Positions 50,356-56,726 of a DNA stretch of 64,000 nt are shown here, piece after piece. Position 1 is the first letter of the stretch. Each line of letters opens with the position of its first letter. Below the pieces are notes generated by a model. That model saw only the letters and a list, made by a program, of their open reading frames with translations, did not search any database and was not told the DNA's origin. This DNA is from Paenibacillus polymyxa (GTDB lineage: Bacteria; Bacillota; Bacilli; Paenibacillales; Paenibacillaceae): contig NZ_JAGGNR010000020.1 in NCBI RefSeq assembly GCF_018614975.1, positions 1 through 64,000 on the forward strand. The letters run 5' to 3'. Both the position numbers and the translations under genes were made by a program.

Positions 50356-51654
50356 TTAGTGGTCCAGGAACACAAGCTGAATGAAAAACAATACTGCAAA
50401 AATGTAGAAGATTGGATGAACATCTTTACCTTTTCCACGAAGCAGCTTGAGTACCGGATAAAAGATGAAACCTACGCCGATGCCTGTCGCAATACTATGC
50501 GTCAATGGAGTAAGGATGATAATCAGGAAGGCAGGAAATGCTTCTTCGAGATCATCCCATTTGATTTTGCTGATAACGTTAATCATAAAGTATCCAACAA
50601 TAATCAGTGCCGGAGAAGTGATCGCCGGAATGCTTGAAATTACACTTACGATCGGTGTGAAAAACAAGGTCAGCGCAAGCAGCACACTTACCGTTACCCC
50701 TGTCAGTCCCGTTCTTCCGCCTGCAGCCACCCCTGTGCTGGACTCGATGTAAGCCGATGTTGGACTTGTTCCGAGCAAAGCGCCACTGGTTGTTCCTACG
50801 GCATCTGCCAATAGTGCTCCGCGCGAGCGTGGGAATTTCCCATCCTTCAGCAATCCTGCTTGTTCAGCAACACCGAGCATCGTGCCCGTCGTATCAAACA
50901 GCGTGATCAGCAGGAATGTAAATATGATCGTATATAAACCATTCGAGAATACACCTGCCAAATCCAGTTGTAAAGCCGTTGAAGCGAGGCCTTGCGGCAT
51001 GGATACAATCGATTCCGGCATTTGGAATAGTCCCATGATCCAGGCAAGTATCGCTGTTACCACCATTCCGATGAACAGGTAACCCTTCACATTATAAGCC
51101 ATCAGCACAACGGTGATAATCAATCCGATAATGGTCAGATAAGCCATTGGCTCAGCCAAGTTTCCGATCGTAATCAAATTCGATTCTGAATCGGCAATAA
51201 TCCCGGCATTTTGCAAACCTACCGTTGTAATAAACAATCCGATCCCTGCGGTTATGGCATGTTTCAAGCTTGCAGGAATTGCATCAAGCAACATGTAACG
51301 GAATGAAGTCAGTGATAAAATGATAAACAAAATCCCTGCTATAAATACGGCTCCCAGTGCAACCTGCCAAGACACGCCATATCCTCCAACTACGCTATAG
51401 GCAAAGAATGCATTCAGGCCCATACCCGGCGCGATGACGATTGGATAATTGGACCATATTCCCATAATCAGAGTTCCCACAATACTTGCCAGTACCGTTG
51501 CTATGAATACTCCGTTAAAGTCCATGCCTGTGCTGCTGAGTATTCCTGGGTTTACGATAACTATGTATACCATTGTGAAGAATGTTGTAACCCCTGCGAT
51601 AATTTCTGTGGGGATGGTCGTGCCTCGTTCTTTAAGTTTGAACCATTTGTCCAT
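50356..51654 (-). CDS. Purine permease, NCS2 family (PbuG/PbuO/AzgA type)
   Basis: A 432-residue proton-coupled nucleobase importer of the AzgA-like NCS2 group, with about fourteen helices. Signatures are FFTMVYIVIVNPGILSSTGMD at TM1, IAPGMGLNAFFAYSVV, LFDTTGTMLGVAEQAGLL, and the substrate-site stretch GALLGTSPTSAYIESSTGVAAGGRTGLTG. It imports adenine, guanine or hypoxanthine; which one cannot be told. The ATG at 51654 has GGAGG 11 bp upstream. A consensus promoter and a 180-nt structured leader precede it, suggesting RNA-level control, but the leader does not match the purine riboswitch core. Confidence 0.93.
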   Translation of the reverse strand: MDKWFKLKERGTTIPTEIIAGVTTFFTMVYIVIVNPGILSSTGMDFNGVFIATVLASIVGTLIMGIWSNYPIVIAPGMGLNAFFAYSVVGGYGVSWQVALGAVFIAGILFIILSLTSFRYMLLDAIPASLKHAITAGIGLFITTVGLQNAGIIADSESNLITIGNLAEPMAYLTIIGLIITVVLMAYNVKGYLFIGMVVTAILAWIMGLFQMPESIVSMPQGLASTALQLDLAGVFSNGLYTIIFTFLLITLFDTTGTMLGVAEQAGLLKDGKFPRSRGALLADAVGTTSGALLGTSPTSAYIESSTGVAAGGRTGLTGVTVSVLLALTLFFTPIVSVISSIPAITSPALIIVGYFMINVISKIKWDDLEEAFPAFLIIILTPLTHSIATGIGVGFIFYPVLKLLRGKGKDVHPIFYIFAVLFFIQLVFLDH

Positions 51655-51701
51655 GGTAAAGCCAGCCTCCAACCTTCAAATTATACTCCAAAGCTAAAAA
51701 C

Positions 51702-51764
51702 AAAAAATCCTAATCTTCATATAGGATTGTAATATTGTCGCTCCTATATTCGTTGTTAGGATTT
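51702..51764 (-). promoter_or_regulatory. Structured leader ending in a terminator-like hairpin
   Basis: On the minus strand the outer stem AAATCCTAA (51756-51764) pairs with TTAGGATTT (51705-51713), and the inner stem ATATAGGA (51742-51749) pairs with TCCTATAT (51719-51726). TTTTTTG follows the outer stem, as in an intrinsic terminator. It lies inside the leader of the purine permease transcript, 48 nt before the start codon, so it is probably an attenuator. In the rest of the 51655-52016 stretch I see only the promoter, a possible 12-codon leader frame and the hairpin at 51983. Confidence 0.65.
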
Positions 51765-51838
51765 AAAGATTCAACAGCTAAGTTCTAAACTAAACATAAA
51801 GATACTCATATCTGTTTTCAACCTGAAATCCATTTCGT

Positions 51839-51867
51839 ATTCTAATTAAAATTACATGCAATGTCAA
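51839..51867 (-). promoter_or_regulatory. Sigma-A-type promoter of the purine permease gene
   Basis: TTGACA (51862-51867) and TAGAAT (51839-51844) on the minus strand are separated by exactly 17 bp. Transcription would start near 51832, giving a leader of about 180 nt. Confidence 0.8.
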
Positions 51868-51982
51868 TGAATTAACGATTTGTTCACAGTTATTCACGAA
51901 CAATACAGACAATATATCTTGTGTTCATTCGTATTAATAATAGAGTATGTACGTATTGCTCAATGTTGCAATATATGAAGAA

Positions 51983-52011
51983 AGACTGCCAGCAATGTTC
52001 ACTGACAGTCT
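51983..52011 (-). terminator. Terminator after the 42-residue protein gene
   Basis: AGACTG (51983-51988) and CAGTCT (52006-52011) pair, with an inner CAG/CTG. The T run is weak (TTTCTT). It is 6 bp past the stop codon of the small gene. Confidence 0.6.
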
Positions 52012-52016
52012 CTTGC

Positions 52017-52145
52017 TTAATTCGTAGTAGGTTTCTCTTCATATTCGCTGGATAATTCTTTAAGCGATTTGATTTTGCCATGGGGATGCTGTTCTTGCTT
52101 ACGTGACTTCCAGGCAGCTTCTTTGCGTTTCTTCTGGTCAGCCAT
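52017..52145 (-). CDS. Small basic protein of 42 residues (DUF6254-like)
   Basis: A short gene with a full ribosome site (AGGAGG, 9 bp before the ATG) and its own hairpin downstream. The protein begins MADQKKRKEAAWKSRKQEQH, continues PHGKIKSLKELSSEYEEK and ends in PTTN. The pattern of a charged helix, then QxxHPHGKxKSxxEL, is like that of the very small DUF6254-type proteins of Bacillota, as far as I can recall that family. The function is unknown. It is highly basic in its first half, so nucleic-acid or ribosome contact is possible. Confidence 0.75.
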   Translation of the reverse strand: MADQKKRKEAAWKSRKQEQHPHGKIKSLKELSSEYEEKPTTN

Positions 52146-52268: not shown

Positions 52269-55200
52269 CTAGTTAGCAGGACCCAGATTAATCAAGCTGA
52301 CCTCGGATAATGAGACGGTTGTGTTGCCATCTTGCGCACCATCAATGTTACCCAGATCAAATGAAATTCGAGTATTCGCATAGCTGTCTTCTGTTGCATC
52401 AAATGTAAACGTGAACTCTTGTTCTTCTGGAGTCAAATCAACTCGTGCCCCAAAGAAACCATGCCATTCATAGTTGGCAGCGGCATCAACCCATCCAATC
52501 CCCAAACCCAATTTCCTGGACGTCTCCGCTTTGGCTTTAAACGTTAATTTATATTTAAAACCTTGCTGTATGCCAAATCCTTCATTGATGACTTGACGAT
52601 CCCATGGATGCTGCCCTGCATGACCAATCTTGGCTTGAAGCTGTTGATTGCTAACTTGCATCTCAAGGTCCGCTGCATTACCGTCCGCATGGGTAAACCA
52701 ACCTTCCTTACCTTTGGAGAAGTCTCCGTTAGGAATAAGATTAACATGAGCAGGCTGCCCTCCTTGATCTGCATTCGGATTCACTTCATATAATTGGACG
52801 TTATTGATGTGAATCGAGTGTTCACCTGTAGATAGCGGATATCCTAATCCAAATGCAAGCATAGCTTCCGAATCGGAGGTATCCCCCATGGTGATTGCGT
52901 AATTATACGACTTTTGATCCGCGGTTAATACCACTTCTTCTTCAAAATACTTCACAAAATCCCCTGCATTCTGAGAAAGAACCGCTTGCATGGATTTAGG
53001 ACTTGAAGCAGATGCCTCGAAGGTAAGTCGGTACGTTTTGTTTGCATCAAGTTTAATCTGACCTTGTTGTAACAAAGCATCCCACCAATGTTCACTTGTA
53101 CCAGGCAAATTAATCGTTAATCCTGCGCCCTCGTCATGTGAGGCTGTCAGATCATTAGGAATTAGCTCCCAATGATTCAGATCAGCTGTTAGCTCACTGT
53201 TCTGAATTTTATTTTGTGAAATATCCACCCAACGTGTATTATAATCTGCTCCTTCAAAATTCACATAATAGGGTTTGCCTGCTATCAAGTTGACCCCTGG
53301 GAAATACACCGTTTTATATGCTTGCCATCCACCCGTGTCTCCAAGACTCAGGTCTGATTGTGCAACGGTTGTACCTTGTTCATCCTGAATGCTGAACTGA
53401 ACTTTTGAATCACTTTTTCCACTGGCCATTCGGGCAGACAGAACATATACTCCGTCGTGAGCTACATCGATTTTATATTGCAGCAGATCTCCCTGATCCA
53501 TGTAACTGACATGTTTTCCTCCTTCTACGGAGTCCTCCAGTTGTAAGCCCTGCATCATCCAGGCTTCGGTTGCAGGAACATGTGCGTAGCCATTCACTGA
53601 CAGAGGTTTTCCGCGTTTCGTCAGACGAACATTGTCCACATATACCTTACCTTTAGAACTGCCAAATAACAGTCTTAGCTCGGATTGTGCGATTGATGCT
53701 CCATCTCCAATGATGATTTCTCCGGTGAATGTTTTCATTTCTTGATTCAAGGAGAGGTTTTGTCCTTGATGAACCTGTACTGTATGCCCATTACTGCTGA
53801 CAACATCAATGTCGATGCTTCGCGGTGTGTCTGCCTTGGCATCTAAGGAGAAACCATACGTTGTATTCGCTTCCAGCTTCAAAACCGGTTGGTTCACCGA
53901 AACTTGTTGTGGGTCACCATTCGTTTGAGTAACATCAACAACTAGCTGACGCTCCATAATCGGGAATTTCGAAAAGTTATTAACACTAATATTGGCTGCC
54001 GCACTGTCCTGAATGCTGCTTGACCAAAAACCCAGACGCTCCTTGCCTTGATCGAATGTACCATTGTAAATAAAGTTGCCATCAGGTAGCGCGTTTCGTT
54101 CGACAGTTAACGGATCAGCCTCTCCCACCTCAATCAGTCTGACATTGGCCAGCCAAACGGTTGTATTATCCAGCCCCAGATTAAATTCGAATCTGGCATT
54201 GTTATCCGTGCCATCCCGCATATTGAAGGTATAGTCATAGGATTGCCAATCTGTCGTGAGTGCAAAGGTGTTATCACCCGAATAATTCGTCCAGCTTTTT
54301 TCAAATTGGTTCAGTTTGGACATGATTGTACGGTTAGCAGATGCTTTGGCATCAAATTGTATCTTGTACTTTTTGTTTTTCTTGATGTACATCGGCATCT
54401 GAGTGAGTTGAACCGAATAGTTTTCAGTACCCGATGCATCAATGGTAACTTGTGCTGCTTTCCCTTTTTGCTCATCCGTTACAACTTTGACACTGCCAGC
54501 TCCATCAGCATTTGTAATGAATTTCCACTGAAGAGGAACTCCATTTTCTGCAGCCCCTTCCGAAAAACGATCATTGTAGATTTGATTGCCATCGGCTTGT
54601 GGTTCACGCTGTTGTGCATGCTCGATGGGATTTGTTATTACATCAGGCCATGTGTCTAGATTTTTGTAAGAATATACTCGCACAAAATCAACATTCATCT
54701 TTTCGGAAGTGAAGCTGCTTTCAGGTGAGCCCGGCCAGTCTCCTCCAACTGCCAGATTCAGAATCAGATAGAATGGACGATCAAATGGTGCAGGGAACGT
54801 ATAATACTCGGGTTGGCCCGCAGCCTTCGTTTGCCAGTTGGTCACTTCATGATGCAGCTTTCCATCCACATAGAAGCGAATCATGCCCGGCAACCATTCC
54901 ACCTGGAAATCGTGATAATCGTCGGCGAAAGTTTCTCCCTTCGGAAGAGTAAGGCTTCCCTGATCGTGTCCATGGGAGCCGTCAGGCTTCACACTGTCAT
55001 AATGCAATGTGCTATATACCTTGTTATTACTCTCTTTGCCACCAATTAGCTCCATAATATCGATTTCTCCAGAGGCAGGCCATCCACCATAATGTGCTTC
55101 ATCGGTTGGCATCATCCATATGGCAGGCCACATGCCTTTTTCAATTGGAAGCTTCGCACGTACAACTACTTTACCGTAGGTCCAATCGCCTTTTTCCATA

Positions 55201-56726
55201 GAGATCAGTTTGCCAGAGCTGTAATCTTTACCATTTTTCAGACCCTTTTTTGCTTCAATCTGCAACACGCTTCGATTCTGATCTTTTGTAATGCGAGTGT
55301 TATCCGGACTGTAATATTGCATTTCATTGTTATAAACGAGTCCTGTATCCTGCACGGTCCATTTGGAAGCATCAATCGCAGGCCCGTTAAACTCATCATT
55401 CCAGACCAGTTCCCATTGATCATGCGGAATTGTTGTAGCTGGAACCGGTTTTTCACCCGCAGGATTGCTTGGTGTCGATGGGTTGGATGGTGTTTGCCCT
55501 CCTGGAGAAGATTGGGTTGGAGTGTTTGCCACACTCGTTGACCCCCCAGGTTGTGACGAAGCAGGTTGCTGAACTTCCCCTACCATGGATGTACGCAGAC
55601 CTTGTTTCACTTTCTCTCCATTAATAACAACATCATTCGCATCAACACTTAATTTTTGGATCGTACCTTTGGTATCCACTCGGGTCTGGTTCGCCCCTGC
55701 GAGAATATTCATGGTATCAATCAGACTATTGGAGGAGATATCCAGAATGGATTGTTCCATGACAACGATCTCCTGAATATTACTTTCTTCCGTGATGGCA
55801 ACTCTGACGGGTTCCCCTCGTTTGTCAACGACTACTCGATTCAGCTTGGAGTTGCTAATATCGATGGAATGACTGCCGCCGCCTTTAATGATGACACTTC
55901 CTGTAACAGTTACGCCCTGAAGAACAACAGATCCCTCGCCAATGCCTTCTGCCAGCAGCAGATTTCCGTTGACAATCATATTTTTCAGTGTGACATCCGT
56001 TGATTTAATAATCAAGTTGCCATCCACCCGGGACTCATATGTACCAGGAGTACTTTTCACATCGGCAATCATCGCCGACAACATTGCTGCCGTCTCTGCT
56101 CGTGTAATCGGGGATTTAGGATTTAATTTGCCTTGGAAACCTTTAAGAATATTTTCGTCTACTAAATAGGTAAGCGCTTTCTTTGCGTAGCTGGAAATAT
56201 CATCTGCATCCTCAAATTTCAATCCTTCACTATCTTCATTTGAAGTCGCTGAAAGTTGAAAAGCTCGATCTACCATAACCGCTGCATCTTGGCGGGTAAT
56301 CGGTTGTTGCGGTGACAGATGTTCACGGTCTGTCCCTTCGATGATGCCAGAACCATTCGCTCGTACCATTACGTCATAGTACCAATCGTCTGAAGTCACA
56401 TCCGCATATGAGCCAGTCGCCGCATTACCGGTGAAACCAAAGGTCCGATCCAGAATCATCACGAATTCAGCTCGGCTAATGACCTGACTGGGCTTAAATG
56501 TTCCATCCGTGTACCCTCTCAATAGATTCAAGTCTTGCAACCGTGTAACTGCAGATTGTGACCAATGCCCGGTCAGGTCTTTATAAGGAACAGAGAAGTG
56601 CAGGCTTTTCGCCTGCACATTTCCCACCTCCGCTTGACCCTGTACACTTTTTGCTCCAGCGGTTGCTGGATATACGAGAGAAGCCATTAAACTCCATGCC
56701 ACCATACATGCCAGTCCTTTTCTCAT
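52269..56726 (-). CDS. Surface-anchored GH16 laminarinase with SLH and carbohydrate-binding domains
   Basis: A 1485-residue exported endo-beta-1,3(4)-glucanase. After a signal peptide (about 1-25) come three SLH repeats (about 45-220; GHWSQSAVTRLQDLNLLRGYTDGTF and so on) that bind cell-wall polymer. A repetitive beta-solenoid-like stretch follows (about 225-375; GNLIIKSTDVTLKNMIVNGNL). A Pro/Ser/Thr linker then leads to the GH16 domain at about 437-690, with the catalytic motif GEIDIME at about 552-558 (nucleophile and acid Glu, helper Asp). The remaining 790 residues contain about four CBM4/9-type beta-sandwiches and one CBM6-like module. It is the last gene after two permeases, 43 bp downstream. 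The products would be imported by that transporter. Confidence 0.93.
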   Translation of the reverse strand: MRKGLACMVAWSLMASLVYPATAGAKSVQGQAEVGNVQAKSLHFSVPYKDLTGHWSQSAVTRLQDLNLLRGYTDGTFKPSQVISRAEFVMILDRTFGFTGNAATGSYADVTSDDWYYDVMVRANGSGIIEGTDREHLSPQQPITRQDAAVMVDRAFQLSATSNEDSEGLKFEDADDISSYAKKALTYLVDENILKGFQGKLNPKSPITRAETAAMLSAMIADVKSTPGTYESRVDGNLIIKSTDVTLKNMIVNGNLLLAEGIGEGSVVLQGVTVTGSVIIKGGGSHSIDISNSKLNRVVVDKRGEPVRVAITEESNIQEIVVMEQSILDISSNSLIDTMNILAGANQTRVDTKGTIQKLSVDANDVVINGEKVKQGLRTSMVGEVQQPASSQPGGSTSVANTPTQSSPGGQTPSNPSTPSNPAGEKPVPATTIPHDQWELVWNDEFNGPAIDASKWTVQDTGLVYNNEMQYYSPDNTRITKDQNRSVLQIEAKKGLKNGKDYSSGKLISMEKGDWTYGKVVVRAKLPIEKGMWPAIWMMPTDEAHYGGWPASGEIDIMELIGGKESNNKVYSTLHYDSVKPDGSHGHDQGSLTLPKGETFADDYHDFQVEWLPGMIRFYVDGKLHHEVTNWQTKAAGQPEYYTFPAPFDRPFYLILNLAVGGDWPGSPESSFTSEKMNVDFVRVYSYKNLDTWPDVITNPIEHAQQREPQADGNQIYNDRFSEGAAENGVPLQWKFITNADGAGSVKVVTDEQKGKAAQVTIDASGTENYSVQLTQMPMYIKKNKKYKIQFDAKASANRTIMSKLNQFEKSWTNYSGDNTFALTTDWQSYDYTFNMRDGTDNNARFEFNLGLDNTTVWLANVRLIEVGEADPLTVERNALPDGNFIYNGTFDQGKERLGFWSSSIQDSAAANISVNNFSKFPIMERQLVVDVTQTNGDPQQVSVNQPVLKLEANTTYGFSLDAKADTPRSIDIDVVSSNGHTVQVHQGQNLSLNQEMKTFTGEIIIGDGASIAQSELRLLFGSSKGKVYVDNVRLTKRGKPLSVNGYAHVPATEAWMMQGLQLEDSVEGGKHVSYMDQGDLLQYKIDVAHDGVYVLSARMASGKSDSKVQFSIQDEQGTTVAQSDLSLGDTGGWQAYKTVYFPGVNLIAGKPYYVNFEGADYNTRWVDISQNKIQNSELTADLNHWELIPNDLTASHDEGAGLTINLPGTSEHWWDALLQQGQIKLDANKTYRLTFEASASSPKSMQAVLSQNAGDFVKYFEEEVVLTADQKSYNYAITMGDTSDSEAMLAFGLGYPLSTGEHSIHINNVQLYEVNPNADQGGQPAHVNLIPNGDFSKGKEGWFTHADGNAADLEMQVSNQQLQAKIGHAGQHPWDRQVINEGFGIQQGFKYKLTFKAKAETSRKLGLGIGWVDAAANYEWHGFFGARVDLTPEEQEFTFTFDATEDSYANTRISFDLGNIDGAQDGNTTVSLSEVSLINLGPAN

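Follow-up and report, generated by a model that had tools for sequence, protein, structure and literature searches.

The purine permease locus

The window, which is the whole stretch of 64,000 nucleotides of Paenibacillus polymyxa that was analyzed, carries an NCS2 family purine permease on the minus strand (50356–51654, 432 aa from ATG; PF00860, Xan_ur_permease, Pfam E 7e-53), and the other features of the locus lie on the same strand. The permease gene is preceded by the Shine-Dalgarno sequence GGAGG (51666–51670) and, farther upstream, by the sigma-A type promoter TTGACA-17-TAGAAT (51839–51867), both of which are conserved in relatives. The promoter matches 11 of 12 consensus bases, and all 40 unique same-genus leaders have the TTGAC of its -35 element unchanged. 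The leader runs from approximately 51832 to the ATG at 51654, which gives a length of approximately 178 nt. An earlier note on this DNA had described a consensus promoter and a leader of about 180 nt, and our results agree with both descriptions.

A pair of PurR-type operators, whose CGAA-N27-TTCG cores form two inverted PurBoxes, is predicted from conservation at 51897–51931, upstream of the -35 element. The leader consists of a terminator hairpin with a U tail (51702–51763) and a region before it (51764–51838), which we regard as a putative former aptamer region and which comprises a conserved block after the start site (51838–51809) and a drifting middle. The block reads CGAAAUGGAC.UCAGGUU.AAACAGA and is conserved in the clade of sensor-less leaders described below. 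Directly upstream of the locus is a minus-strand gene for a 42-aa DUF6254 protein (52017–52145), which is followed by its own hairpin and T run (approximately 52012–51980). The minus strand also encodes, at 52269–56726, a 1485-aa protein in which S-layer homology, glycosyl hydrolase family 16 and several carbohydrate-binding domains were recognized.

The leader also contains a 12-codon ATG frame starting ATGAGTATC (51771–51809), and the earlier note had suggested that a leader peptide might be involved. Under such attenuation, whether the terminator forms would depend on translation of the short frame ahead of it. An ATG is indeed found at +27 to +31 in 33 of 40 unique genus leaders, but it is missing there in the other seven, and the frame itself is not conserved. 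Its length ranges from 5 to more than 50 codons, and its end is scattered between 28 nt upstream and 85 nt downstream of the terminator start, where the frame does not stay open; a 13-nt repeat shifts it in L006, L007 and L051. In addition, only approximately 45 and 33 nt precede the hairpin in L068 and L069, respectively, and a strong Shine-Dalgarno sequence was not seen before the frame. We therefore consider control by a leader peptide hardly credible.

Terminator hairpin and Rfam searches

The terminator hairpin is formed by an outer helix (51763–51756 pairing with 51713–51706) and an inner helix (51749–51742 pairing with 51726–51719). Its folding energy was -16.2 kcal/mol (z -5.57), and none of 200 shuffled sequences was equally stable, which bears out the two-stem structure with a T tail described before. 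A simple terminator scan did not report the hairpin because of its internal loop. We also considered a kink-turn or loop-E reading of this loop, judged by eye; it was rejected, as such a motif is not conserved in L013 and L014.

When the whole window was searched against Rfam at gathering scores, neither the leader nor any other part of it matched a family. A search of 51500–52020 at E values up to 10 returned nothing relevant, only one chance snoRNA match on the opposite strand. The view of the earlier note that a standard purine riboswitch is absent thus held for the window itself, whereas a covariance model did find riboswitches in the orthologous leaders of other genera, as shown below.

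Distribution of the hairpin and the permease

A search for the permease in 39 related genomes gave some match in 38 of them. Orthologues with at least 87% identity were present in 16 of 24 same-genus genomes, the own genome included. A covariance model (R1) was built from 14 hairpins, taken from the clade and from L017. Because the same 16 of 24 genomes carry the hairpin in the R1 search, the gene and the hairpin travel together. The permease start lies 3' of the hairpin in 60 of 60 loci (L017 and 59 clade loci, among which are repeats of the same genomes). R1 matched 55 of 75 genus genomes at one site each, with the extra matches being opposite-strand echoes of the near-palindrome, and 77 of 296 genomes drawn from the order.

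An exact scan for the frozen 5' strand of the hairpin in named genomes returned 31 records, of which 30 contain the terminator and the permease start and the remaining one is a chance match. These 30 records are titled Paenibacillus in 29 cases and Neobacillus mesonae in one. The latter (L133, titled Neobacillus mesonae MER 107) has a Paenibacillus-type leader and permease and is probably a mislabelled genome. Within the own genome, a second site or antisense partner of the frozen strand was sought; the sole exact match was the site itself, and the other 11 of the 12 matches had two mismatches each and were not above the control.

The same hairpin behind purine aptamers

Forty further R1 sites were sorted by the downstream frame into 6 of the window type, 14 with NCS2 permeases, 12 with EamA-like transporters, 7 with amidohydrolases and 1 orphan (L085); Pfam was used to check one NCS2, one EamA and two amidohydrolase proteins, and the others were grouped by eye. 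The purine riboswitch family RF00167 overlapped the hairpin in 15 of 15 non-clade loci tested, including L017, with scores of 40–74 bits. No RF00167 match was found in 13 of 13 clade loci tested (5 and 8 in two runs), and the positive control L109 in the run on 8 loci scored 87.6 bits. In the riboswitch loci, the aptamer match covers approximately 31 nt of the 5' strand of the hairpin; for example, in L070 the aptamer lies at 933–1031 and the R1 hairpin at 1001–1065. The R1 positions used for this overlap come from a set that leaves out L085, L099 and L106.

According to this overlap, the 5' strand of the hairpin, UCCUAA-YN-ACGA-AUAUAGGA (51742–51763), corresponds to P3', J3/1 and P1' of the aptamer and the start of the inner helix in the riboswitch relatives. 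The overlap suggests that the strand of the window, UCCUAA-C-A-ACGA, descends from these aptamer parts. Since R1 matches purine-riboswitch terminators, the window terminator is homologous to terminators that overlap the 3' strand of an aptamer, which is a feature of the pbuE-type platform. A competing aptamer was found in the window leader neither by Rfam at E values up to 10 nor by the pocket string. Orthologous permeases lie behind both forms, riboswitch-bearing and sensor-less. From the pbuE-type layout, we infer that the riboswitch-bearing relatives would be ON switches.

Several other loci with this terminator were observed. The hairpin of L085 (approximately 1001–1059) is of the same type (AAUCCUAACUACGAAGACAAUAUA...); inspection by eye revealed no aptamer before it, and its gene context differs. 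We placed it in neither the clade nor the riboswitch group, and it is perhaps an independent case of sensor loss. Twelve loci (L074, L077, L080, L081, L084, L089, L095, L096, L098, L101, L102 and L104) have EamA-like transporters, of which that of L077 was tested with Pfam, behind purine riboswitches with the same overlapping terminator. These riboswitches are predicted ON switches before likely exporters, and some of their P2 loops are unusually long. The gene of L088 (561–1970, minus strand) encodes an 8-oxoguanine deaminase (NCBIfam NF006055, 600 bits, cut-off 532), and its leader is an ON-type purine riboswitch with an altered J2/3, GGGGCUCUAC. L082, L090, L093, L097 and L100 are similar, with the NCBIfam assignment made on L088. 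In 2023, 8-oxoguanine riboswitches were reportedly found in Paenibacillaceae, and the L088-type leader presumably matches them.

RF00167 matches the own genome at five other sites, including one ahead of the paralogous permease on contig 64. Other loci of the same cell therefore probably continue to sense purines by RNA. At G000:C67:226385-226495 and at equivalent positions in other genus genomes, RF00167 matches of approximately 38 bits and 111 nt are longer than the model, and they are candidates for guanine-II or xanthine-II variants with junction insertions.

Probable loss of the aptamer

The pocket string UCUAC, which is the J2/3 core, was present in 13 of 15 riboswitch-bearing NCS2 leaders but absent from all 49 unique clade leaders. 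The 5' strand of P1, AUUCGUA, survives in 4 of 49 clade leaders. These basal leaders (L015, L016, L143 and L152) have kept P1 (AUUCGUA/UACGAAU), and their junction is cut to a short loop. Of 44 leaders tested for aptamer similarity, those of two other basal relatives (L012 and L061) could be aligned collinearly with J1/2-P2-L2-J2/3-P3, and only 5 and 4 of 5000 shuffles, respectively, were as good; the corrected value is approximately 0.04, and the two are close kin. The pre-terminator sequence of the window was not more similar to canonical aptamers than its shuffles (3483/5000). Because the window has no significant aptamer similarity of its own, the claim of decay in the window rests on the homology of the terminator and the gene and on the basal relatives. 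A three-way junction of P1, P2 and P3 was not recovered from 23 clade leaders, in which the terminator was the only clear consensus fold.

In the permease tree, which also contained 13 riboswitch rows, all 24 sensor-less rows fell into a single clade with a support of 100/100, and a tree with fewer rows gave the same single sensor-less clade. L072 and L086 were left out as fragments, and the root is unsure with the long-branched outgroups. The simplest reading is that the aptamer was lost once, before the clade radiated, because the UCCUAA.ACGA strand, which the clade has retained, points most readily to an ancestor with an aptamer.

These leaders might instead contain a divergent purine aptamer that still works and was missed by the Rfam model. 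The window keeps a C at the position equivalent to 74, and a P3-like GGAGC..UCC survives in L013 and L014. However, the complete absence of the pocket string from the clade, the empty Rfam result at the relaxed threshold and the shrinkage of the leader before the hairpin in L069 and L068 argue against it. The junction positions equivalent to 74–75 also drift in the clade, where position 74 is C or U and position 75 is variable. We consider such an aptamer very improbable.

Constraint on the hairpin and the rest of the leader

We compared 26 same-genus leaders whose fourfold-site identity to the window was below 0.75 (mean 0.54, lowest 0.32). The mean identity to the window was 1.00 for the 5' strand of the inner helix, 0.95 for the 5' strand of the outer helix and 0.98 for the 3' strand of the outer helix with the Ts. 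Outside the hairpin, the mean was 0.77 in the block that follows the start site, 0.58 in the drifting middle and 0.49 in the stretch separating the PurBoxes. In the 5' strand of the hairpin, 18 of 23 positions are invariant in 40 of 40 leaders, while the fourfold sites fall to 0.32–0.36 identity. The stems were thus conserved when homologous leaders were compared.

At a permease distance of 0.10–0.15, the difference in the 5' strand of the inner helix was 0.05 in the clade (59 pairs) and 0.27 in the riboswitch relatives (10 pairs). The outer, aptamer-shared strand showed the reverse, with differences of 0.17 and 0.06, respectively. These differences at equal permease distance indicate that constraint on the aptamer-shared strand has relaxed, with the inner helix now frozen. 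The hairpins of 33 riboswitch homologues carry many both-sided changes, which fall mainly in the inner helix. Only two cells with such changes were found among 28 clade hairpins, and both belong to the outer helix; these counts come from an alignment fitted to the model, which leans towards structure. Within the clade alone, no covariation was detected in the first 14 hairpins. The frozen inner helix means that the hairpin would still do something sequence-specific.

Such constraint could reflect a re-purposed attenuator, in which the hairpin or its 5' strand ACGAAUAUAGGAGC came to be targeted by a new signal once the aptamer had been lost. The signal might be a cis-bound small molecule or a factor acting in trans, and it would decide whether the nested terminator or a pair of small hairpins (UCCUA..UAGGA and AUCCUA..UUAGGAU) forms. 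UCCUA/UAGGA occurs on all four strands, so the two-hairpin fold is possible (-9.2 versus -14.9 kcal/mol for the terminator), and the invariant positions of the 5' strand and the reversed pattern of strand differences are in favor of this reading. The 3' side of the internal loop is variable in length and sequence, unlike the loop of an aptamer. A dedicated binding protein is disfavored by the single site per genome and by the lack of a regulator gene directly adjoining. A new signal of this kind seems to us possible, though on the unlikely side. In its boldest form, the expression platform of a dead riboswitch would have become a regulator of its own, a bistable hairpin of approximately 62 nt that is frozen across the Paenibacillus clade and reads a new signal. 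We hold this form to be doubtful; if true, the bistable hairpin would be a new RNA control element born from the stop signal of a riboswitch.

The conserved block after the start site might also act as a rewired antiterminator, with AGGUU-AAA-ACAG pairing with CUGUU-A-AAUCCU and sequestering the terminator strand. The pairing can be drawn in many leaders and looked convincing by eye, with apparent compensatory changes, but it failed the swap test. The matched and swapped arms gave -7.17 and -7.22 kcal/mol, respectively, and 6222 of 10,000 permutations were as low. A helix scan gave no clear winner, and the consensus fold before the terminator was weak, with 13 of 200 column shuffles as low, so an upstream partner of the hairpin showed no covariation in these tests. 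The pairing of ACGAAUAUAGGAG with the upstream leader had a mean z of -0.05, with 6 of 44 leaders below -1.5, in a test that the riboswitch positive controls failed too. We believe that a rewired antiterminator is improbable.

Probable PurR control

Among the unique clade leaders, 42 of 44 have the CGAA/TTCG pair at a spacing of N26/27, as do 10 of the 14 NCS2 leaders with a riboswitch. In the controls, the pair was seen in none of the 12 leaders of EamA genes and in one of the 7 leaders of amidohydrolase genes. The bare CGAA-N27-TTCG pattern was rejected as stand-alone evidence of PurR, with 104 occurrences in the genome. The evidence for PurR is its conservation, because the bare pattern is common by chance. 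In Bacillus subtilis, passages of PMC8789054 describe PurBoxes of 14 bp with a CGAA core and a spacer of 16–17 bp. The predicted sites here resemble the control of pbuG and pbuO by PurR described there, as the CGAA/TTCG boxes are inverted, agree in spacing and lie immediately before the -35 element of a purine permease gene. Most likely, PurR would carry the purine response at this locus, and the leader terminator would lower the output without sensing purines.

Discussion

We believe, with a probability of roughly 70%, that the ancestor of the leader was an ON-type purine riboswitch like that of pbuE, whose aptamer has decayed while the terminator and the PurR operators were kept, and that the leader is now a sensor-less attenuator. 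In the ancestor, the 5' strand of the terminator would have doubled as the 3' third of the aptamer, the layout seen in the relatives, and ligand binding would have blocked the terminator. In the lineage of the window, the 5' strand of P1, P2, the J2/3 pocket and most of P3 would then have decayed, and the promoter, the PurR operators and the terminator would have been retained. At present, PurR, de-repressed by PRPP, may set transcription at the promoter, and the leader terminator may attenuate all transcripts to an extent that purine binding to the leader no longer determines. Some observations fit this history less well: a terminator that is purely passive would not be expected to keep the sequence of its inner helix frozen, the conservation of the block after the start site (0.77 versus 0.54 at fourfold sites) is not accounted for, and the long-branched outgroups do not settle the root among the permeases. 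Of the interpretation in the earlier note, an attenuator-like terminator in a purine-permease leader was upheld and the leader peptide was not; its other suggestions, a different RNA sensor or a protein-bound attenuator, may still apply.

On this reading, the clade is a phylogenetically resolved case in which the sensor of a riboswitch was lost while selection continues to act on the terminator, and in which the constraint can be seen to have moved from the aptamer-shared strand to the inner helix. The fate of an expression platform after the death of its aptamer can be tested by side-by-side comparison of orthologous leaders, and terminator-like leaders without an Rfam match can be descendants of riboswitches. 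Our search of the open-licence PMC literature returned no paper on a purine riboswitch that has lost its aptamer.

Related systems have been described. In the pbuE riboswitch of B. subtilis, according to passages of PMC7707468, the inner hairpin (P4) starts strand exchange through P1, J3/1 and P3, and the terminator forms unless the ligand blocks it. The orthologous leaders in other genera share the layout of RF00167 riboswitches with this ON platform, namely a terminator 5' strand made of P3'-J3/1-P1', an inner hairpin, a U tail and a purine transporter gene. In contrast, the clade of the window has no recognizable 5' strand of P1, P2, J2/3 pocket or P3. Guanine-II variants, for which ON control is predicted, and xanthine-II variants occur in the same genus and have a guanine-type three-way junction altered by evolution, as passages of PMC9295807 describe. 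Unlike the clade of the window, where the junction is gone, those variants keep it and bind purine, and the genes given there are different. The "ghost aptamers" of glycine riboswitch singletons, in the passages of PMC6944388, are degraded aptamers of which a part is retained. In that case, one aptamer of the two is still intact, with the ghost acting as a scaffold, whereas the present leaders have lost their only aptamer and retained the terminator.
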